Assembly (NCBI GenBank): GCA_017962375.1
Contig: JAGCVJ010000011.1
Coordinates: 124,001-188,000, forward strand
DNA length: 64,000 bases
Direction of reading: 5' to 3'
From: Bacteroidales bacterium
GTDB lineage: Bacteria; Bacteroidota; Bacteroidia; Bacteroidales; UBA932
The notes below the pieces were generated by a model. That model worked only from the letters and a program-made list of their open reading frames with translations, searched no databases and was not told the origin of the DNA. The position numbers were made by a program, and so were the translations under genes. Shown piece by piece: positions 1-10,223 of the stretch; within the stretch, counting starts at the first letter, position 1, and every line of letters starts with the position of its first letter.

Positions 1-915
1 TGCGCTCATTCCCGGGCGGAAAGGATCTTTCAGGTCTGCGTAGGACTCAGGGACTATCCTGACCTTCACTTCAAACGTGGTAGCCTGGTCCAGAGAAGCC
101 GTGGCGGAACTCTTGGAAGAATTGGCCACCTCGGTAACCACTCCGTAGAAATCTCTGTCCATATACGCGTCCACGGTGATCTTGGCGCTGTCTCCTGGAT
201 TGAGGCGGATAATATCGTTCTCGTTCACGTCCACCAGCACTTCCATCTGGTCGAAATTGGCCACCCTGAACATCTCGGTGCCGGCCATCTGGCTGGTTCC
301 CACAACTCTTTCGCCGAGCTCAACCGAGAGCTTGGAAATGATTCCGTCCATCGGGGAATAAATGGTGGTCTTGAGCAGATTCTCCCTGGCTTCCTTGAGC
401 CTGGCCTCGGCGCTGCTGATGTTGAAACGGGCGCCGTCCAGCTGCTGCTGGGCCACATCCCATTCGGCGCTGGCGTTCTCGTACTCGGCCTTGGAAACGG
501 TCTTCAGCTCATAGAGCTTGGAATATCTTTCAAAGTTCTGCTTTGCCCTCAGTGTCTGGGCCTGCTGTTGCTTGTAGGATGCCCTCACAGCATTCAGTGA
601 TGCCATAGCCTGATCCACGGCAGACAGGTAAATGTCCTGCTTGATCTTGATAATAAGGTCTCCCTTCTTGACGGCGTCTCCTTCTTTGACGTGAAGTTCC
701 ACAATTTCTCCGGACACATCGGGAGAAATCTTGACTTCCGTCACAGGCTGGATCTTTCCGTTTGCAGGAATGTTTTCCACGATAGTCATCCTGCTTGCCT
801 TCTGCGTTTCAACTATAGGCAGCTGGTTTTTCTTGCAGGTTTTGGACATTATCATCATCAGCACTATAACGGCTGCGGCAATTATCCACCAGATATTTTT
901 CTTTTTCTTCCCCAT
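1..915 (-). CDS. HlyD-family periplasmic adaptor (membrane fusion protein), partial
   Basis: Only the first 305 codons are in the window; the C-terminus runs off the left edge. An N-terminal membrane anchor (about residues 8-22) is followed by a lipoyl/biotinyl-like half (SPDVSGEIVELHVKEGD), a coiled-coil hairpin rich in Gln/Ala/Glu, the second lipoyl half (IYSPMDGIISKL) and the start of the beta-barrel. Family members bridge an inner-membrane exporter to a TolC-like channel. It starts 4 bases after the TolC-like gene, so the two are co-transcribed. It is most likely the adaptor for the C39 peptide exporter upstream. An RND-type pump adaptor is the alternative, but no RND pump gene is visible in the window. 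Confidence 0.9.
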   Translation of the reverse strand, partial: MGKKKKNIWWIIAAAVIVLMMIMSKTCKKNQLPIVETQKASRMTIVENIPANGKIQPVTEVKISPDVSGEIVELHVKEGDAVKKGDLIIKIKQDIYLSAVDQAMASLNAVRASYKQQQAQTLRAKQNFERYSKLYELKTVSKAEYENASAEWDVAQQQLDGARFNISSAEARLKEARENLLKTTIYSPMDGIISKLSVELGERVVGTSQMAGTEMFRVANFDQMEVLVDVNENDIIRLNPGDSAKITVDAYMDRDFYGVVTEVANSSKSSATASLDQATTFEVKVRIVPESYADLKDPFRPGMSA

Positions 916-919
916 TAGT

Positions 920-2245
920 TTATAGATTGATGGCTTTTCCTTTGTAGAAATCCAGGATCTTCAGCTCGAACAGATACTGGTATTTTGCCTGGTAATAGGC
1001 AGATACGGCTTTGAACAAGTTGGTCTTGGCAATGTTGTAGTCTGTGGCGTTCATCATTCCCACGTTGAACTTGTTCTCTGTATATGTGAAGGATTCCTGT
1101 ATGCTTCTCATGTTTTCCTTGGCGGCTTTCATTCTCTCGTACGCGTTCAGCGCCTCGTTCCAGGCGGTCTGGATTTCCTTGTAGAGCGACTGCTTCTGCA
1201 TCTGGAGAGTGAGCCTGCTGTTTTCAACCGCCAGCCGGGCATTTCTTGCGCTGGTGCGGGCAGACAGGGAATTGAAAACCGGTATGCTCAGCGAAAAGCC
1301 CAGCGACGGGTTCTTGTTGTGCTCGAACTGAGTGAAGAACGCTCCGCTCTGGCCGTCGGTATAGTAAGAGCCGTAGCCTGCCTGCACTGATAGTGAAGGC
1401 AGCATCCTGCCCCATATTGCTTTGTAGTCGTACTTGCTTTTCTCCAGGCTGTACTCAGCGATTTTAACCTGCGGCAGATCAAGCGCCTGCGCATAGATGT
1501 CCGAGGCCGTTCCTTCCGGAAGGGCGATCTCGGAGGCCGTGCTGTCTGGAGCCATTACATCGAAAGAGGCGGCCACATCGGCAGGCAGGTCCAGCAGCTG
1601 GATCAGGGTGAGCATATTGGTCCTCACGTCTGAAGACGCCGAAACCAGCTGAGACTTCTCGTTGGCAAGCTGGGCCTTCACCTCCAGAAGGGTGCTGTAA
1701 GCCTGGCTTCCCGCATCCACCAGCTGGGCTGTGCGTTTCACCTGTTCCTCGGTGCTCTTGCAGCTTTCCTCGGCAGACCGCTCTATCTCCCTGGAGAGCA
1801 AAAGCTGAAGGTAAGCCCTTGTAATCTGGATGGTTATGTCGTTCTTGATCTTCTCCACCTGCTGCTCGGCAATCTTCAGGGAAGTGGTGTTGCTCCTTAT
1901 GGAGTTGGCCTTGGAAAAGCCCTGGAATATTGTCGCTGAGGCGCTGAGGCTTCCGCTGGTGGACATGCTTCTCTTGTTCTTTATGATTTCCAGTGTCTGG
2001 AGATTGACGGAACGGCCCCAGCTCATGTTGTGGGAAAGGCCGGCATTCACGCTCGGCGCCAGATCCCACTTAGACTGCCTGGCGCTGTTTTCGGCCTGCT
2101 CCACTGCAATTTCTTCCATCTTTACCTGCAGGTTGTTTTCCCTCGCGTATTCTATGCACCGCTGCAAAGTCCAAGGCTGCTGCCCGAAGCAGTCTAGGCA
2201 GAAGCAAAGCAAAACGCAGGCAGATATCACTAGTCTCTTTTTCAT
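920..2245 (-). CDS. TolC-family outer-membrane channel
   Basis: A 441-aa protein with a signal peptide (MKKRLVISACVLLCFCLDCFGQQ) followed by the paired helical and strand repeats of the outer membrane efflux family, for example WTLQRCIEYARENNLQVK near the N-terminus and YNIAKTNLFKAVSAYYQAKYQ near the C-terminus. An upstream ATG at 2263 is possible, but MKKR at 2245 gives a clean signal peptide. A TATCTTTG box lies 5 bases before this start, so the gene may also have its own very short-leader promoter. It forms the outer-membrane exit of a tripartite type I secretion path with the HlyD-like adaptor downstream and the C39 ABC transporter upstream. Confidence 0.93.
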   Translation of the reverse strand: MKKRLVISACVLLCFCLDCFGQQPWTLQRCIEYARENNLQVKMEEIAVEQAENSARQSKWDLAPSVNAGLSHNMSWGRSVNLQTLEIIKNKRSMSTSGSLSASATIFQGFSKANSIRSNTTSLKIAEQQVEKIKNDITIQITRAYLQLLLSREIERSAEESCKSTEEQVKRTAQLVDAGSQAYSTLLEVKAQLANEKSQLVSASSDVRTNMLTLIQLLDLPADVAASFDVMAPDSTASEIALPEGTASDIYAQALDLPQVKIAEYSLEKSKYDYKAIWGRMLPSLSVQAGYGSYYTDGQSGAFFTQFEHNKNPSLGFSLSIPVFNSLSARTSARNARLAVENSRLTLQMQKQSLYKEIQTAWNEALNAYERMKAAKENMRSIQESFTYTENKFNVGMMNATDYNIAKTNLFKAVSAYYQAKYQYLFELKILDFYKGKAINL

Positions 2246-2327
2246 CCTCGCAAAGATAGTCATTTAATGGTTGTATGATACTATAATGAATGAAGGGATT
2301 GACTTTTGGCCAACCCCTTCATCCTTG

Positions 2328-2516
2328 TCACATAGCGTAAAATCTTGCCAGCTGCTGTGCAAGCTGGGGATTGCGCCCCTTGCGGATATCTTTTATCATC
2401 TTGACAATCATTCCAATGCCATACCCCAAAAGTTCCATGAACTTGGCAATGTCGGAGTCTTTTCCGCCCAGAACCATAATCTTTTCAGAAGCGGAAATCT
2501 CAATAAAACCTTTCAT
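2328..2516 (-). CDS. Double-glycine leader peptide B (bacteriocin-like)
   Basis: A 62-aa peptide. The leader MKGFIEISASEKIMVLGG matches the double-glycine consensus: Ile at -12, Ser at -11, Glu at -8, Val at -4, Gly-Gly at -2/-1. Cleavage after Gly18 would release a 44-residue core that starts KDSDIAKF, is amphipathic, has net charge about +4 and contains a GxxxG motif (GYGIG), a feature of the paired helices of two-peptide bacteriocins. It lies 10 bases after peptide A and downstream of a C39-peptidase ABC transporter that would cleave and export it. I know no named family for the core. Antibacterial activity is inferred from leader, charge and context; a signalling role is the alternative. 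Confidence 0.75.
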   Translation of the reverse strand: MKGFIEISASEKIMVLGGKDSDIAKFMELLGYGIGMIVKMIKDIRKGRNPQLAQQLARFYAM

Positions 2517-2526
2517 AGCCGCCCTC

Positions 2527-2736
2527 CTATCTCATTAAAGCGAATAGCGGCTTCCCTTCGAGCGCCTTCTTGTAACCCTTGTAGAAATCTTCTCCATAGG
2601 TGGAAATCACGTCTATGATGATTCCCAGAATCTTGGCGATTTTCCTGATTGTTTCGGGGCTCAATCCTCCCCGCACTTGGGATTCGTCTTCTTCTATACT
2701 GGCAAATCCTCTCATCATCAGTCTGTTGTCTTCCAT
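2527..2736 (-). CDS. Double-glycine leader peptide A (bacteriocin-like)
   Basis: A 69-aa peptide starting MEDNRLMM. The frame stays open upstream into the transporter gene, but this ATG is the first one after the transporter stop and leaves a 59-base gap. The leader ends ESQVRGG, with Val at -4, Asp at -8 and Gly23-Gly24. It shares an M(R/K)GF motif with the leader of peptide B, 12-13 residues before the Gly pair. The predicted 45-residue core (LSPETIRKIAKILGIIIDV...) is cationic (about +3) and amphipathic. Leader similarity, near-equal core length and adjacency suggest that A and B form a pair. Confidence 0.72.
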   Translation of the reverse strand: MEDNRLMMRGFASIEEDESQVRGGLSPETIRKIAKILGIIIDVISTYGEDFYKGYKKALEGKPLFALMR

Positions 2737-2795
2737 TTTCTTGTCAGTGCTAAAATTTTCCGGCAAGTTTGGCGCGCCGGATTCCGCCTTTATAA

Positions 2796-4940
2796 TCAAC
2801 CGGTCAATTGTATCAAGTTGTCGCACAGCCGCTCTAGCTCTCTGTCGTGGGAGATCACCACCACGCATTTTCCTTCCTGCTTGAGATGCTGCAGAAGATG
2901 AAGGAAAGAATCTTTCCCGCCGCTGTCCATATTGGAGGCCGCCTCGTCAAATATCATGACGGGAGTGTCGGCATACAGCATCCTGGCAACCAGAATCATC
3001 TGCTTTTCCCCTCCCGACAGAGCCACTCCGCAAGGCCCGGCATCCGAAAGCAGGCCCTTGTCCAGATGTTCCAGCATAGGGCCCATTCCGGCCATAAGGG
3101 CCGCCTTGAGAGCCTTTTTCAGCTCTTTTTCATCTATTTTTTCCTCCGTTCTTCCCGGAGTCATCGCGATGTTGTCAAAGATGGTGGCATTGAACAGGTG
3201 AGATCTTTGTGGGGCTATAGATATGGCGCCCCTCCAGCAAGTAGAATCGATACTAGAAATATCAATGCCACCGTAAGTTATCTTGCCGCTTACGGGAGTG
3301 CAGTCTCTGAGCATCAAAGCGGCAATGGTGCTCTTTCCGCTTCCGTTAGGGCCCTGTATGCAGTTTATGCTTGAGCCCTTGAGCTGCAGGTTCAGGTTAT
3401 GGAGCAGCCTCCGCCCTCCCGGGTATCGGAATTCTACATCCCTGAATTCCAGGACGGCGCCACTCCCCGGCAATATGGTAACCGGGGCTTTTGCGCCGCC
3501 GCTTTGAATGGAGTTGAAAGAAGCGGTTATGTCGTATATTCTGTCTGAAGCCACAAGGGCCTCGTTCATAAGAGAGTCGAATCCTACAAGGGAGGTGGCG
3601 GAGGAAATGAAGAAGGCGCTAAGGGTGTAGAACGAAACCAGCTCTCCCAGGCTGAGCCTGCCGCCAATCACTCCGGTGCCTCCCACAACCAGAATAAGGC
3701 TCATTATCACCTGAGAGGCTCCGTTTCCTATCCCGTTTATTGCCGCGGTTATCTTGCCAAAGCTGAATCCCTTGAAAATCAAGTTGCTGAAGCTGCTGTT
3801 GAACTTGAGGGCGGACGGATTCACCCCAAAGTGGCGGATAGCCGCCTGGCCTTCTATGCTGTCTATGACATCGCTCTCGAAAGCGGCAGAGGCGGCCATC
3901 ACCTTGCGGCTCATCTTCCGGTTCAGCCTGTCCGCCGTTCCCAGCAGCACAAGATAAACCGGAATGCAGGCGGCCAGAACCGCGGCCAGCCGGCTGTAGA
4001 AGGTAAACATCAGAGCCGTAACCACGGCAAGAGTGGCCACGCACACTCCGAGCGACACCATCCCCTCGCAGATGAAAGCCCTGATCTTGCCGGTGTCGGA
4101 AAGCCTGGATTCCAGCTCTCCCTTTGGATAGTCCCTGAAAAATCTCTCGTCCATCCTGAGAATTCTTCTCATGAAACCCATAATCAGCGACGAGTCTATG
4201 GCTATTCCTCCCTGAAGAAGGTAAAGGTCTCTCATATAGCCAATCAGAAGTGACACCGGAATCAGGGCGGCAAGAATGCAGGCCACTGCAGCTAGAGCCG
4301 AGGAGCTTCCTCCGGGCAGTATCTTGTCTATGAGCATCTGCAGAAGAAGGGAGTTGCATATTCCTATGGCAGTCAAAGAAATGGAACCCGCAAAAGAGAG
4401 AACAATCTCCCTGCGGTGGAAGGCCATAAGCCTGAGCAGCCTTGCCGTTCTGCTCTCGGCTTTTTCCGCTGCACAGATTCCCTCTCCCGCGCACATTATT
4501 ACTATGTAGCCGCTCCACATCTGTGCAAAATCCGCAATATTCACCCGCCTAATTCTTTCTTTTGCGGGGTCCATAATCTCCAGGCTCTTCTTCCCGGTCT
4601 TGAAAATGACCACATAATGAAGCATTCCTTCCTTAGACACCGTATGCGCTATCACCGGAGCCTTGGAAGATGACAGCATCCTGAGCTTGGCGGTCTTTGC
4701 CGCAGTGTCTGAAAGGTCTATCCCCTCTGCCTTCAAAGCCTTGGCGCACAGGCCCACGGCAGCTGCCCCGTCTGTCAGCCCCTGGAGGCTGATGCCGTTA
4801 GGGGAGCAGCCGCACTCCCGGCGGAAGCGGCTCAGCGGAAGCCTTATGCCCCACCATGCCGCCACGCTTGCCAGGCAAGCTGCGCCGCAGTCGTAAGAAT
4901 CTGTCTGCCTTATATGTATCTTCCTTCTCATTGCATTCAA
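2796..4940 (-). CDS. Peptidase C39-containing ABC transporter (peptide export)
   Basis: A 714-aa protein, the usual length of a peptidase-containing ABC transporter. The N-terminal C39 domain (1-150) has the catalytic Cys18 in YDCGAACL, His108 in MLHYVV and Asp124 in MDPA. A membrane domain (about 170-450) and an ATPase domain follow, the latter with Walker A GPNGSGKST, signature LSGGEKQM, Walker B VMIFDEAAS and H-loop VVISHDRE. All catalytic elements are intact. Such proteins cut double-glycine leaders and export the core peptide. The two genes directly downstream encode double-glycine peptides, then TolC and HlyD partners. An in-frame ATG at 4931 is an alternative start. Confidence 0.95.
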   Translation of the reverse strand: MNAMRRKIHIRQTDSYDCGAACLASVAAWWGIRLPLSRFRRECGCSPNGISLQGLTDGAAAVGLCAKALKAEGIDLSDTAAKTAKLRMLSSSKAPVIAHTVSKEGMLHYVVIFKTGKKSLEIMDPAKERIRRVNIADFAQMWSGYIVIMCAGEGICAAEKAESRTARLLRLMAFHRREIVLSFAGSISLTAIGICNSLLLQMLIDKILPGGSSSALAAVACILAALIPVSLLIGYMRDLYLLQGGIAIDSSLIMGFMRRILRMDERFFRDYPKGELESRLSDTGKIRAFICEGMVSLGVCVATLAVVTALMFTFYSRLAAVLAACIPVYLVLLGTADRLNRKMSRKVMAASAAFESDVIDSIEGQAAIRHFGVNPSALKFNSSFSNLIFKGFSFGKITAAINGIGNGASQVIMSLILVVGGTGVIGGRLSLGELVSFYTLSAFFISSATSLVGFDSLMNEALVASDRIYDITASFNSIQSGGAKAPVTILPGSGAVLEFRDVEFRYPGGRRLLHNLNLQLKGSSINCIQGPNGSGKSTIAALMLRDCTPVSGKITYGGIDISSIDSTCWRGAISIAPQRSHLFNATIFDNIAMTPGRTEEKIDEKELKKALKAALMAGMGPMLEHLDKGLLSDAGPCGVALSGGEKQMILVARMLYADTPVMIFDEAASNMDSGGKDSFLHLLQHLKQEGKCVVVISHDRELERLCDNLIQLTG

Positions 4941-4944
4941 AAGA

Positions 4945-4996
4945 AGGGTGCCGGAAAAAGCCCGTTTGTCCGATGTAGAAGAAAACCCGGCACCCT
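4945..4996 (-). promoter_or_regulatory. Intercistronic hairpin before the C39 transporter
   Basis: A perfect 10-bp inverted repeat: AGGGTGCCGG at 4945-4954 and CCGGCACCCT at 4987-4996, with a loop of 32 bases. On the minus-strand transcript it begins 7 bases after the stop of the 45-aa peptide gene and ends 4 bases before the transporter ATG, followed by the T-rich TCTTTTG. It could be an attenuator or an mRNA processing/stability element separating the first small gene from the rest of the operon. Confidence 0.55.
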
Positions 4997-5003
4997 GAGA
5001 AAA

Positions 5004-5141
5004 TTATGATAACAACACACTCAAAGTGCCAATGCAAATAGCTGTACCTATAATTATCGCGATGATATAGAGGGCCGAGCCGCCCCTTGCTATTCTCAGC
5101 GACGCCCATTCCGGGCTGCGTGACAATTCACTCCCTTCCAT
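5004..5141 (-). CDS. 45-aa membrane peptide at head of export operon
   Basis: A short ORF starting MEGSELSRSPEWASL. Residues 15-21 (LRIARGG) give a basic stretch and a Gly-Gly pair; residues 22-45 are almost entirely hydrophobic and ample for one membrane span. It is the first ORF after a good Bacteroidota promoter (ATG 22 bases after the -7 box) and lies 63 bases before the transporter. Two readings are possible: a small immunity-type membrane protein for the bacteriocin-like pair, or a third exported peptide cut after the Gly pair. The leader lacks Glu at -8, which favours the first. The ORF is short, so it could be untranslated. Confidence 0.5.
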   Translation of the reverse strand: MEGSELSRSPEWASLRIARGGSALYIIAIIIGTAICIGTLSVLLS

Positions 5142-5163: not shown

Positions 5164-5196
5164 CAAAGATGGGGGAGGAGAACAGGCTTCTCCAAA
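5164..5196 (-). promoter_or_regulatory. Predicted promoter of the peptide-export operon
   Basis: On the minus strand, TTTG (5196-5193), a 21-base spacer and CATCTTTG (5171-5164). This matches the Bacteroidota primary sigma consensus TTTG-N19-21-TAnnTTTG with one mismatch. The first ORF starts 22 bases after the -7 box. Confidence 0.6.
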
Positions 5197-5218
5197 CCAT
5201 TCGGTAAAATTGACGCGT

Positions 5219-5236
5219 TACAATCGTACGATTGTA
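5219..5236. promoter_or_regulatory. 18-bp perfect palindrome, candidate operator
   Basis: TACAATCGTACGATTGTA is a perfect palindrome, with each half containing ACGATTGT. Its centre lies about 70 bases before the predicted start of transcription of the peptide-export operon and 34 bases beyond the end of cvpA. It has the size and symmetry of a dimeric regulator site. No regulator gene lies next to it. Confidence 0.5.
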
Positions 5237-5261: not shown

Positions 5262-5765
5262 TTAGCTGATATTCGAGAACAGCTGCCTTACAAAAGGCAT
5301 GATCTTGTCTGCCGCGGCGTTTAAATAAGCGTAGGCTTTGCTTGCCTTCAGAACCTCGGGAACCTCTACATTCATGGTTTCCAGAGCGCCGTCAACCAGA
5401 GAGGCCACAGCTACCAGTATCAGAGCAACTTTCACTACGCAGAACACGGCTCCCAGGAACTTGTTCAAGCCGCCCAGAACGGTCAGGTTCATAACCTTCT
5501 CCAGCAGTTTTCCCAGCAGGTGGCATACAATGATTATTACAACCACCAGCAAGATGAATGAGACGATCTTTACGGCTGAGGCGGAATCCTGGGCCCCGAA
5601 AAGGCCGATTGCCCATTCGGATACTGAAGGCGTGAGCTTGGATGCTCCCCAGATGCCTATCAAAACTCCGAGTATAGATATCAGCTGGGCCAGAAATCCT
5701 TTGTAAATGCCCCATATCGCTGCCGCTATTCCAAGCGCAATTACAACTATATCAATCCAATTCAT
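5262..5765 (-). CDS. CvpA family membrane protein
   Basis: A 167-aa protein with about four membrane segments and the N-terminal pattern of the CvpA (colicin V production) family: MNWIDIVVIALGIAAAIWGIYKGF with the conserved NxxD and GxxxGF. The family is widely conserved in Bacteroidota; its molecular role is poorly defined. A TATCTTTG box on the minus strand (5794-5787) can serve as its -7 element. It is divergent from ileS, and its 3' end faces the operator/promoter of the peptide-export operon. Despite the family name, nothing ties it functionally to that operon beyond position. Confidence 0.88.
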   Translation of the reverse strand: MNWIDIVVIALGIAAAIWGIYKGFLAQLISILGVLIGIWGASKLTPSVSEWAIGLFGAQDSASAVKIVSFILLVVVIIIVCHLLGKLLEKVMNLTVLGGLNKFLGAVFCVVKVALILVAVASLVDGALETMNVEVPEVLKASKAYAYLNAAADKIMPFVRQLFSNIS

Positions 5766-8800: not shown

Positions 8801-9269
8801 ATTTGCTAACTTTACACAGAAAGATATCTCTGCAATTGAGAGAAGCGAGGAATACACCCTCAATCTTCCTTCCGGAGACGTGGTTCTCCAGAAGGGTGAC
8901 TACGAGATATCTTCAGAAGACATGCCGGGATGGCTCGTGGCCACTGAAGGGGCTCTGACACTTGCGCTTGACATCCAGATTTCCGAAGACCTGAGAAGGG
9001 AAGGCACCGCCAGGGAACTGGTGAACCGCATCCAGAACATCAGGAAAGACTCCGGATTCGAGGTGACAGACAGGGTATCGGTGACCATAGAAGCCAAGGA
9101 AGACGTTTCCCGCGCCCTTGAAGGCGACAACAACTTCAGTTCTTATGTCTGCGCCCAGACTCTGGCCAACAAGCTCAATCTGGCAGCTGCAGACTCCCCT
9201 GAACTGGAAGGCGCCCAGGAAGTTGAGTGGGAAGACGGCAAAACTTTGAAAATAAAAGTTGAAAGATAA
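5841..9269 (+). CDS. ileS: Isoleucine--tRNA ligase (type 2) with GIHH signature
   Basis: An 1142-aa class I synthetase that charges tRNA-Ile in the cytoplasm. It has the ATP-site signature in the N-terminal Rossmann part (PPSANGKPGIHH, residues 47-58), the CP1 editing domain (TTTPWTLPSN), the KMSKR loop (GEKMSKRLGN), the anticodon-binding helices and a long C-terminal region typical of the eukaryote-like type 2 enzymes. The signature normally read as HxGH is G55-I-H-H58, with first and third positions exchanged; the codons GGC ATT CAC CAC are unambiguous. The rest of the protein is intact and of normal length, so this is a functional variant rather than decay. See findings for the antibiotic implication. 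Confidence 0.97.
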   Translation: MGFAEYKKFDPVEIGKQVLEKWKQERCFENVVKAREGAPKFVFFEGPPSANGKPGIHHVMARSIKDAYCRYKTQRGFLVNRKAGWDTHGLPVELGVEKMLGITKEDIGKKISVDEYNLACRKEVMKYTAEWVALTEQIGYWVDMEKPYITYDNRYIETLWYLLKDLYNKGLLYKGYTIQPYSPAAGTGLSSHELNQPGCYRDVKDTTATVQFQVKKDEKSAFLFKGVNVIGEQSPENELSEGELFFIAWTTTPWTLPSNVALCVGPNIEYVRVAASNPYSGKQAIYIVAKDLVEVNFKKVEHKVLDSFKGKALEGVKYFQLLPWILPEENTMRVICGDFVSTEEGTGIVHIAPTFGADDDRVGKQNNIAPFTLKDKEGVWRPMVDRTGKFFRIEDLDEEFVKTRVQDSYLKYAGRYVKNAYDSSLAPDAETLDVDICVQMKMEGKAFKIEKHVHSYPHCWRTDKPVLYYPLDSWFIRATAVRDEMIELNKQINWKPEGTGTGRFGKWLENLQDWNLSRSRYWGTPLPIWRTEDKKEEKCIGSVAELYEEIDKAVSAGVMKSNPLRDKGFVPGDFSDENYFKIDIHKPYIDDVVLVSGSGKPMHRESDLIDVWFDSGAMPYAQETLKALGTPEFGQTADFIAEGVDQTRGWFYTLHAIHTMVSHTPAFKTVVSNGLVLDKKGEKMSKRLGNAVDPFDQLEKYGADALRWYMLTNAQPWDNLKFDEAGVDEVRRKFFGTLYNTYSFFALYGNVDGFTGREEEVPVEQRPEIDRWIISYLNSLIRDVKACYDDYDVTTAGRKIQEFVCDHLSNWYVRLNRKRFWGGTMNQDKLAAYQTLYSCLEAVAILAAPIAPFYTERLFLDLNAVSGRHSEPSVHMALMPNENESLIDKDLEERMALAQKSTSMVLALRRKVNIKVRQPLAKLMIPVIDSKVQDQLQKVQGIILSEVNVKEIEYITNTEGLITKKIKPMFKTLGKKYGKQMKEISSAFANFTQKDISAIERSEEYTLNLPSGDVVLQKGDYEISSEDMPGWLVATEGALTLALDIQISEDLRREGTARELVNRIQNIRKDSGFEVTDRVSVTIEAKEDVSRALEGDNNFSSYVCAQTLANKLNLAAADSPELEGAQEVEWEDGKTLKIKVER

Positions 9270-9290
9270 TAACACGTAAAAAGTTCTATT

Positions 9291-10223
9291 ATGGCAACAA
9301 AAGAGAAAAAGACAGCCAAGACAGCTCCTAAGAATGCTGCGGCTCCGGTAAAGAAGACTGTTGCAAAGAAGGCTCCTGCAAAGAAAGCTGCTCCAGCCAA
9401 GAAGGCCGCTCCGGCCAAGAAGGTTGTAGCCAAGGCTCCTGCCAAGAAGGCCGCTCCAGCCAAGAAAGTTGTAGCAAAAGCTCCAGCCAAGAAGGCCACT
9501 CCAGCCAAGAAGGTTGTAGCAAAGGCTACAGCCAAGAAGGCTGCTCCAGCTAAAAAAGTTGTAGCAAAGGCTCCAGCCAAGAAGGCTGCTCCAGCTAAGA
9601 AGGTTGTAGCAAAGGCCCCTGCAAAGAAAGCCGCTCCAGCTAAGAAGGTTGTAGCAAAGGCTCCTGCAAAGAAAGCCGCTCCAGCCAAGAAGGTTGTAGC
9701 AAAGGCTCCTGCAAAGAAAGCCGCTCCAGCCAAGAAGTCTGTAGCAAAGGCTCCTGCAAAGAAAGTGGTTCCTGCAAAGAAGGAAGAGCCTAAGGCCGTT
9801 GTAAAGCCTGCTGCTCCTAAGGCAGAGCCTGTAAAGAAAGAAGAGCCTGTTGTTCCTACAGTCCGCTACAGCGACGAAGATCTGCAGATGTTCAAGAAAG
9901 TTATTCTCGAGAAGCTCCAGAAGGCCAAGGATGATTATGAAATGCTTCGTTCCGCTATCACGCACCGCACCAGCAACGGAGTTGAGGATACATCTCCTTC
10001 ATTCCAGGTTATCGAGGAGGGCGCATTCTCCCTTTCAAAGGAAGAGAGCAGCCAGCTTGCCAACCGCCAGTACAAGTTCATCCAGAACCTTGAGGCAGCT
10101 TTGGTAAGAATCGAGAACAAGACTTACGGAATCAGCCGTGTAACCGGAAAGCTCATCCCTAAGGCCAGATTGCTGCTTGTTCCTCACGCAACTACAAATG
10201 TAGAGGACAAACAGAACAGGTAA
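9291..10223 (+). CDS. Histone H1-like repeat tail fused to DksA/TraR-like domain
   Basis: A 310-aa protein in two parts. Residues about 1-165 are almost only Lys, Ala, Pro and Val in 15-residue repeats (APAKKAAPAKKVVAK), like bacterial histone H1-like proteins. Residues about 185-310 form a coiled coil and a short C-terminal module (ALVRIENKTYGISRVTGKLIPKARL) of the TraR/DksA kind found in Bacteroidota. The usual YGIC/YGVC cysteine is Ser here and the protein has no cysteine, so it cannot hold a zinc finger. The tail should bind DNA or RNA and the C-terminal part may contact RNA polymerase; both are inferences. It lies between ileS and lspA, 6 bases before lspA. Confidence 0.85.
   Translation: MATKEKKTAKTAPKNAAAPVKKTVAKKAPAKKAAPAKKAAPAKKVVAKAPAKKAAPAKKVVAKAPAKKATPAKKVVAKATAKKAAPAKKVVAKAPAKKAAPAKKVVAKAPAKKAAPAKKVVAKAPAKKAAPAKKVVAKAPAKKAAPAKKSVAKAPAKKVVPAKKEEPKAVVKPAAPKAEPVKKEEPVVPTVRYSDEDLQMFKKVILEKLQKAKDDYEMLRSAITHRTSNGVEDTSPSFQVIEEGAFSLSKEESSQLANRQYKFIQNLEAALVRIENKTYGISRVTGKLIPKARLLLVPHATTNVEDKQNR
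9363..9786 (+). repeat. 45-bp in-frame tandem repeats (Lys/Ala/Pro-rich)
   Basis: About eight or nine imperfect copies of a 45-base unit encoding 15 residues such as APAKKAAPAKKVVAK. Copies differ mainly at synonymous third positions, which points to selection on the protein. Long ORFs on the opposite strand here are by-products of the repeat. Confidence 0.9.

Follow-up and report, generated by a model that had tools for sequence, protein, structure and literature searches.

Class IIb bacteriocins (lactococcin G, plantaricin EF/JK/S; models NF038034 and TIGR03949) are encoded as adjacent pairs of precursors with double-glycine leaders, leave the cell through a C39 exporter and have small, mostly cationic cores with a GxxxG-type motif in both peptides. 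According to the available portion of one source (PMC6382864), every class IIb bacteriocin characterised to date carries a GxxxG or GxxxG-like motif, and G18xxxG22 matters for the activity of lactococcin G-beta. We describe here a locus that resembles these systems in each of the architectural features listed above. It lies in a 64,000-nucleotide stretch of DNA (the window; bases 124001-188000 of contig JAGCVJ010000011.1, assembly GCA_017962375.1, in a 2.17-Mb draft genome whose closest named relatives are Bacteroidales) and comprises two adjacent small genes, P1 and P2, between the gene of a C39-peptidase ABC exporter and those of its TolC- and HlyD-type partners. An earlier note on this DNA had pointed to a two-peptide export locus here, and we confirm that observation. 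It had also called the system undescribed: we found no description in the open-licence literature, including the accessible parts of two mining papers (PMC10352776, PMC13289728), which falls short of proof.

The locus differs from class IIb systems in its Gram-negative, tripartite TolC export, in having no sure immunity gene, in its syntenic and apparently vertical inheritance, and in that the window peptides score with no curated model. With no such model matched, no more than candidates for an immunity gene and a putative activity, we do not claim class IIb membership. Export of the colicin V type (class II microcins) likewise combines a double-glycine leader, a C39 ABC protein, a membrane fusion protein and TolC; those systems usually have one peptide with a linked immunity protein, whereas the present one has a constant pair and a MacA-like adaptor. 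The Cdz system of Caulobacter crescentus (CdzC/CdzD) is similar in being Gram-negative, in its type I secretion genes and in its two small proteins with GxxxG motifs. Bacteroidetocins are unlike it: each is a single pediocin-related peptide with at least two cysteines, accompanied by a transmembrane protein and usually by thiol oxidoreductase genes, on mobile elements. No thiol oxidoreductase was seen in the window's block, and the window cores contain no YGNG motif, as already reported.

P1 consists of the leader MEDNRLMMRGFASIEEDESQVRGG (MEDNRLMMRGF...VRGG) followed by a 45-residue core, and P2 of the leader MKGFIEISASEKIMVLGG (MKGF...VLGG) followed by a 44-residue core. The adjacent genes, double-glycine leaders, shared M(R/K)GF motif and core lengths of the original description can thus be read directly as MMRGF...VRGG and MKGF...VLGG, and its cationic cores agree with net charges of +3 (P1) and +4 (P2) in the window. 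On the minus strand the genes run cvpA, promoter region, P0, C39 exporter, P1, P2, tolC, hlyD and tsaB, the last assigned by its sequence and ending the block after hlyD. Spacing is close: 59 bases from the exporter gene to P1, 10 from P1 to P2, 64 from P2 to the first tolC start and 4 from tolC to hlyD. The peptide genes were said to lie between an intact C39-peptidase ABC transporter and TolC/HlyD partners, and this holds for the gene order (4931-2796, 2736-2328, 2263-920 and 915 leftwards) as well as for the proteins. A Pfam scan recovered Peptidase_C39 (E 1.3e-25), ABC_membrane and ABC_tran in the exporter, and OEP and HlyD_D23 in the partners; the best score of the adaptor was with the RND/MacA-type NCBIfam model TIGR01730, above cut-off. 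In 17 aligned exporters Q12, C18, H108 and D124 are invariant, as are the ATPase residues of Walker A (G530/G533/G535/K536/S537/T538) and of the signature (L641/S642/G644), together with D665/E666 and H698; the assignment of catalytic residues among these positions is one that we presume from the C39 and ABC families. The exporter starts at ATG 4931, and a longer frame opens at TTG 4940.

The arrangement is constant within the genus. In 39 genomes searched, 30 exporter loci were fetched, the window's included, and all 30 have P1 and then P2 after the exporter, down to 34% exporter identity; scripted patterns detected both peptides in 28, and for L023 and L033 the missing partner was picked out by eye. 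Scanning 84,980 species genomes by means of two short patterns from the exporter alignment gave 60 loci, in 49 of which (the named loci) P1 follows the C39 gene; the remaining 11 are other exporters or fragments (L104, L105, L107-L110, L112, L114, L121-L123). P2 follows P1 in 48 of the 49, 47 of them detected by hidden Markov model and L113 by eye; L095 ends inside P1. All four of cvpA, tolC, hlyD and tsaB surround the pair in 39 named loci. At least one flank gene is missing in ten (L066, L079, L086, L088, L094, L095, L097, L111, L115, L118), in some because the contig ends, in L086 because another region follows P2, and in L097 and L118 because other genes lie upstream. By their record titles, the 49 come from uncultured Bacteroidales or Bacteroidia, many of them sampled from the rumen or other ruminant gut, from one "uncultured bacterium", and from Candidatus Egerieousia and Cacconaster, which NCBI places in Bacteroidales incertae sedis. 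The GTDB family of the loci is presumably UBA932, and all named loci presumably fall within the family sampled below (f1).

Among 249 sampled genomes of this family, P1 was found in 115 with a first model and in 150, from 12 of 25 genera, with a broader model whose seeds include some of these genomes; the exporter model matched in 191 at E 1e-90, a count that includes other C39 exporters. Where both matches were listed (138 genomes, two additional C39 rows of genome G080 being omitted), P1 lies 50-494 bp downstream of the C39 gene on the same strand in 136, at a median of 76; in the two exceptions P1 begins less than 50 bases from a contig end. Twenty further regions, picked mainly because P1 had not been found there, contained the pair in diverged form in 10 (genera g5, g21 and g2) and no pair in 9, and the last, L145 (g17), has a P1-like peptide and a different double-glycine peptide, not a full pair. 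We also looked for an exporter conserved without the two open reading frames (ORFs), and at the cvpA/tsaB locus found no clear case: L145 has the P1-like peptide only, and L144, a pairless region flanked by ileS and cvpA, is cut by the end of its contig about 480 bases past the C39 gene. Separately, C39 exporters without the pair occur in other genera of the family (L142-L150, L152), some near unrelated double-glycine peptides with a GVxEM...E...GG leader.

The cores themselves were compared in two alignments, A4 with 44 P1 sequences (the window and 43 of the 49 named loci, leaving out L068, L070, L072, L078, L095 and L120) and A5 with 43 P2 sequences (the window and 42 named loci, leaving out L070, L072, L077, L078, L095, L113 and L120). 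Diverged members from g5, g21, g2 and g17 are absent from both and are included, for P1 only, in the broader alignment A6. Y47 and G54 are the sole invariant residues of the P1 core, where position 58 is small in 44/44 sequences (G in 40); G35 is the sole invariant residue of the P2 core, where position 31 is small in 43/43 (G in 30). Because 54/58 and 31/35 are the only fully conserved small positions, those of each core stand exactly four apart, a spacing that by our own arithmetic would arise by chance in ∼4% of cases for two random positions and in ∼0.2% for both peptides. The earlier note had seen GxxxG in the second core only; this needs correction, since a GxxxG-type pair occurs in both peptides of relatives and the window P1 has GxxxA. 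In A6, G54 is invariant and G58 is kept in at least 90%, Y47 not being kept, and among diverged genera we read GxxxG by eye in 10/10 printed P1 and 8/8 printed P2 sequences. Core charge averages +2.4 (range -2 to 5) over 48 P1 cores and +3.4 (range 1 to 6) over 44 P2 cores, 3 of 47 having been omitted for a misplaced start. The hydrophobic moment of P1 was matched by 8 of 500 shuffles. Cysteines are absent from 39 of the 48 P1 cores, seven having one and two having two; the 44 P2 cores divide into 23 without cysteine and 21 with a single one.

Matches to described families were few. The L145 relative, from a cvpA-flanked C39 locus, passes the class IIb (lactobin/cerein) model TIGR03949 with 25.1 bits against a cut-off of 21.5, and a peptide of genome G557 also passes it, mainly on its leader; these are the only passes among the relatives scanned singly. 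Of six diverged P1 relatives, four show some similarity to the lactococcin G-beta model (E 0.0012-0.25; 11.6-19 bits, where the cut-off is 37), a likeness that we do not use for classification because it is weak and below cut-off. A PDB sequence search gave no meaningful match, and PHROGs only scattered matches of one or two members. Across 344 genomes of the order, matches outside the family were weak and none was convincing; one of them (G557) was inspected closely, the others not individually. G557, from another Bacteroidales family, has a P1-type match at E 0.008 with A4 and may be a distant case; its strong score with A6 is circular because G557 is in A6. In this genome (L189 4891-8164; L131) an HlyD-C39 gene pair lies near three small genes, one of which encodes a double-glycine peptide with a P1-resembling GLADGW stretch.

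In the cores, the proportion of nonsynonymous differences (pN) is below that of synonymous differences (pS) in 928 of 946 P1 pairs and 843 of 903 P2 pairs, and most exceptions are distant pairs with saturated sites. These counts cover all pairs; a separate list sorted by lowest pN would favour the result. For the closest pairs (core pS <0.3), pN < pS holds in 5/5 for P1, with a mean pN of 0.05 versus a pS of 0.26, and in 1/1 for P2. Trees were built from the 32 of the 49 loci that have all genes: tsaB and C39 share 14 of tsaB's 15 well-supported splits, and ileS and C39 share 13 of ileS's 21. Distances within the trio of P1, P2 and C39 correlate at r 0.83-0.92 (P1-C39 0.92, P1-P2 0.83), and for P1-P2 an r of 0.63 remains after removal of IleS and TsaB distances, which none of 500 permutations reaches. 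Because several of the frames ran from one stop codon to the next, stretches of upstream junk may raise some of these correlations, most of all CvpA-C39. Searches of viral contigs, plasmids and phages for P1, and of viral contigs for the exporter, came back empty. A mobile bacteriocin cluster, patchy and carried on mobile elements, is rejected on the synteny, the congruent trees and these negative searches.

The span 2328..5141 considered earlier holds a third conserved small gene, P0, which had gone unnamed. An equivalent precedes the C39 gene in 36 of 47 testable named loci and in 10/10 further pair-bearing loci. That P0 might be a third double-glycine peptide is ruled out, as its GG is not kept in relatives. 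Three of the loci that lack a separate P0 gene (L083, L092 and L106) begin the exporter with a sequence resembling P0's N-terminal motif (e.g. EFPQWALLPGK), without the membrane helix, and in L065 only an apparent remnant of the end of P0 is visible. The loss of P0 and its fusion to C39 fit an exporter accessory better than an immunity protein; the latter role is weakened but possible, P0 being the only widely kept candidate for it. An extra gene lies between P2 and tolC in the four fetched g21 loci (L138-L141), and the copy scanned, that of L138 (4619-5422, minus strand), is CPBP/Rce1-like (PF02517, E 1.5e-14). CPBP proteins confer immunity in plantaricin systems.

We favour a reading in which P1 and P2 would be synthesised in an inactive precursor form, the C39 domain of the neighbouring exporter would cut both after Gly-Gly, and the C39-ABC/HlyD/TolC conduit would carry both cores out of the Gram-negative cell, as is usual for these protein families. 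Judged from the genes, it is very probable that a cognate pair is secreted in this way. Outside, the cores might pair via their GxxxG faces and act together on the membrane of other, probably related, cells, with an antibacterial effect. Joint action of P1 and P2 appears rather likely. The whole proposal, that of a secreted, membrane-active helix pair working like a class IIb bacteriocin and killing or inhibiting bacteria, is tentative; we rate it somewhat short of an even chance. The earlier idea of a class IIb-like antibacterial or signalling pair thus stands for the dedicated double-glycine export and the constant, class IIb-looking pair; between antibacterial action and signalling we lean to the former, and only tentatively, given the lack of a family match and of a sure immunity gene and the vertical look of the locus. 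At stake are the existence and functioning of class IIb-like pairs in Bacteroidota, and the question whether a pair of this kind can be a core factor rather than an optional weapon. Conserved across a family that is represented here by little other than metagenome-assembled genomes, the pair offers a defined, synthesisable target.

Several observations weigh against this bacteriocin-like reading. Neither window peptide is recognised by a Pfam family or an NCBIfam bacteriocin family, and at E 1 no class IIb model picks up any of the 44 A4 members. The hydrophobic moment of P2 was matched by 97 of 500 shuffles and so does not rise above them. The block contains no sure immunity gene (elsewhere in the genome no search was made), and 11 of the 47 testable named loci, among them L118 with its runs of N, have no separate P0 gene. 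At E 0.001 the P1 model detects nothing in thirteen of the 25 genera sampled from the family, and some C39 exporters are not accompanied by the pair. Of eight proteins compared, P1 and P2 are the most divergent, with mean p-distances of 0.66 and 0.68 versus 0.27-0.63, and their co-divergence falls to r 0.22 once C39 is also removed. The block is syntenic and looks vertically inherited and old, which is unusual for a bacteriocin; bacteroidetocins, unlike it, are mobile (PMC6671954). The missing immunity gene is not decisive, since the producers of bacteroidetocins also seem to be without an immunity protein in what that source offers (PMC6671954).

A serious rival takes the pair for a core factor that the lineage secretes, a cell-cell signal or a surface or biofilm component with class IIb-like architecture and its own population as target. 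It is favoured by the presence of P1 in 150 of the 249 family genomes and next to the exporter in 136 of 138, by the 14 of 15 TsaB splits shared with C39, by the few amino-acid changes in the cores of close relatives and by the want of a sure immunity gene, and small proteins with a double-glycine motif are on record as acting in Synechococcus biofilm development (PMC4997328, in the part available). The window's block, on the other hand, has no histidine kinase, sensor kinase or response regulator, for which the cvpA-to-tsaB order leaves no room; family-wide the two peptides diverge more than any of the other proteins compared; and bacteriocin pairs that insert into membranes typically have GxxxG-type motifs in both partners (PMC6382864). 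We regard this explanation as possible, if doubtful. A more specific proposal is that of a class IIb-like pair that turned into a vertically inherited core secretion product of a whole, mostly uncultured Bacteroidales family and acts on its own population as a signal or in surface assembly; P0 would then assist the exporter instead of giving immunity, and transcription would start from a promoter class that toxin-antitoxin and fimbrial genes also have. In all these particulars it is, on balance, unlikely.

Another explanation sees in the pair a contact-dependent, surface-retained two-protein toxin like Caulobacter CdzC/D and not a diffusible bacteriocin. Cdz provides a precedent, being a system of two proteins in a Gram-negative bacterium that relies on type I secretion and has GxxxG motifs (PMC5380434). 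Its mature proteins, however, consist to 75% of glycine and small hydrophobic residues, form extended glycine zippers and come with the immunity protein CdzI, as far as the accessible text of that report goes, whereas the window cores are charged, have only 33% (P1) and 32% (P2) G+A+V+I and carry one conserved GxxxG-type pair each rather than an extended small-residue zipper. A toxin of this kind is improbable here, and the bacteriocin-like reading is preferred to it. Small ORFs are easily over-read and the window peptides match no family searched, yet the possibility that they are chance frames beside the exporter of something else has next to no probability left and is rejected on the conserved order and leaders, the 30/30 same-genus loci, the 136/138 adjacency and pN < pS.

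Table 1. Positions in the window of the two-peptide locus and its neighbours
Feature	Position	Strand	Remarks
P1 precursor	2527..2736	-	69 aa: leader 24 aa 2665-2736, core 45 aa 2530-2664, stop 2527-2529
P1 GxxxG-type pair, residues 54/58	2563..2577	-	G and A in window, G and G in most relatives
P2 precursor	2328..2516	-	62 aa: leader 18 aa 2463-2516, core 44 aa 2331-2462
P2 GxxxG pair, residues 31/35	2412..2426	-	
C39-peptidase ABC exporter	2796..4931	-	Pfam domains, invariant residues; family known to process/export double-glycine peptides
TolC-family outer-membrane channel	920..2263	-	OEP above cut-off; TIGR01844 below its cut-off
HlyD/MacA-like periplasmic adaptor	1..915, extends beyond window	-	401 aa at L003 9710-10915
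P0, small protein of 45 aa having a single hydrophobic helix, probably a membrane helix, at its C terminus	5004..5141	-	
Promoter-region element TTTTACCGRATGGTTTKGA, upstream of operon	5191..5209	-	
16-bp palindrome ACAATCGTACGATTGT, possible operator	5220..5235	.	Similar palindromes upstream in near relatives
cvpA (Pfam Colicin_V), usual upstream neighbour	5262..5765	-	Flank, outside the system

Upstream of P0 lie the palindrome, the element TTTTACCGRATGGTTTKGA and a sequence that we presumptively liken to the Bacteroidetes -7 box. With one mismatch allowed, TTTTACCGRATGGTTTKGA was found in 13 of 39 same-genus genomes, with no match in a reversed control; when a shorter form was sought in the window's own genome with two mismatches allowed, 7 matches were obtained versus 2 in the reversed control, so that chance matches are present. 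The combination of palindrome and TTTTACCGRATGGTTTKGA (window 5191-5235; L153-L156, L159-L188) also precedes HigBA/YefM-like toxin-antitoxin genes, DUF1016-like nuclease genes, a RAYT-like transposase gene and a DUF3575-like fimbrial gene, most of these names being our own assumption from the sequences and one having been checked by Pfam. Since the element is common to these genes, the operon shares a promoter class with accessory genes. Sphingolipid genes were rejected as co-regulated, the first ORF after that copy of the promoter being a Gp49/HigB-like toxin gene (the Pfam match was obtained on the homologue in L159).

Elsewhere in the window, at 8913-9965 after ileS, long reverse-strand repeats (LAGAAFFAGAFATT...) suggest that the plus strand would encode a lysine/alanine-rich, histone H1-like repeat protein.

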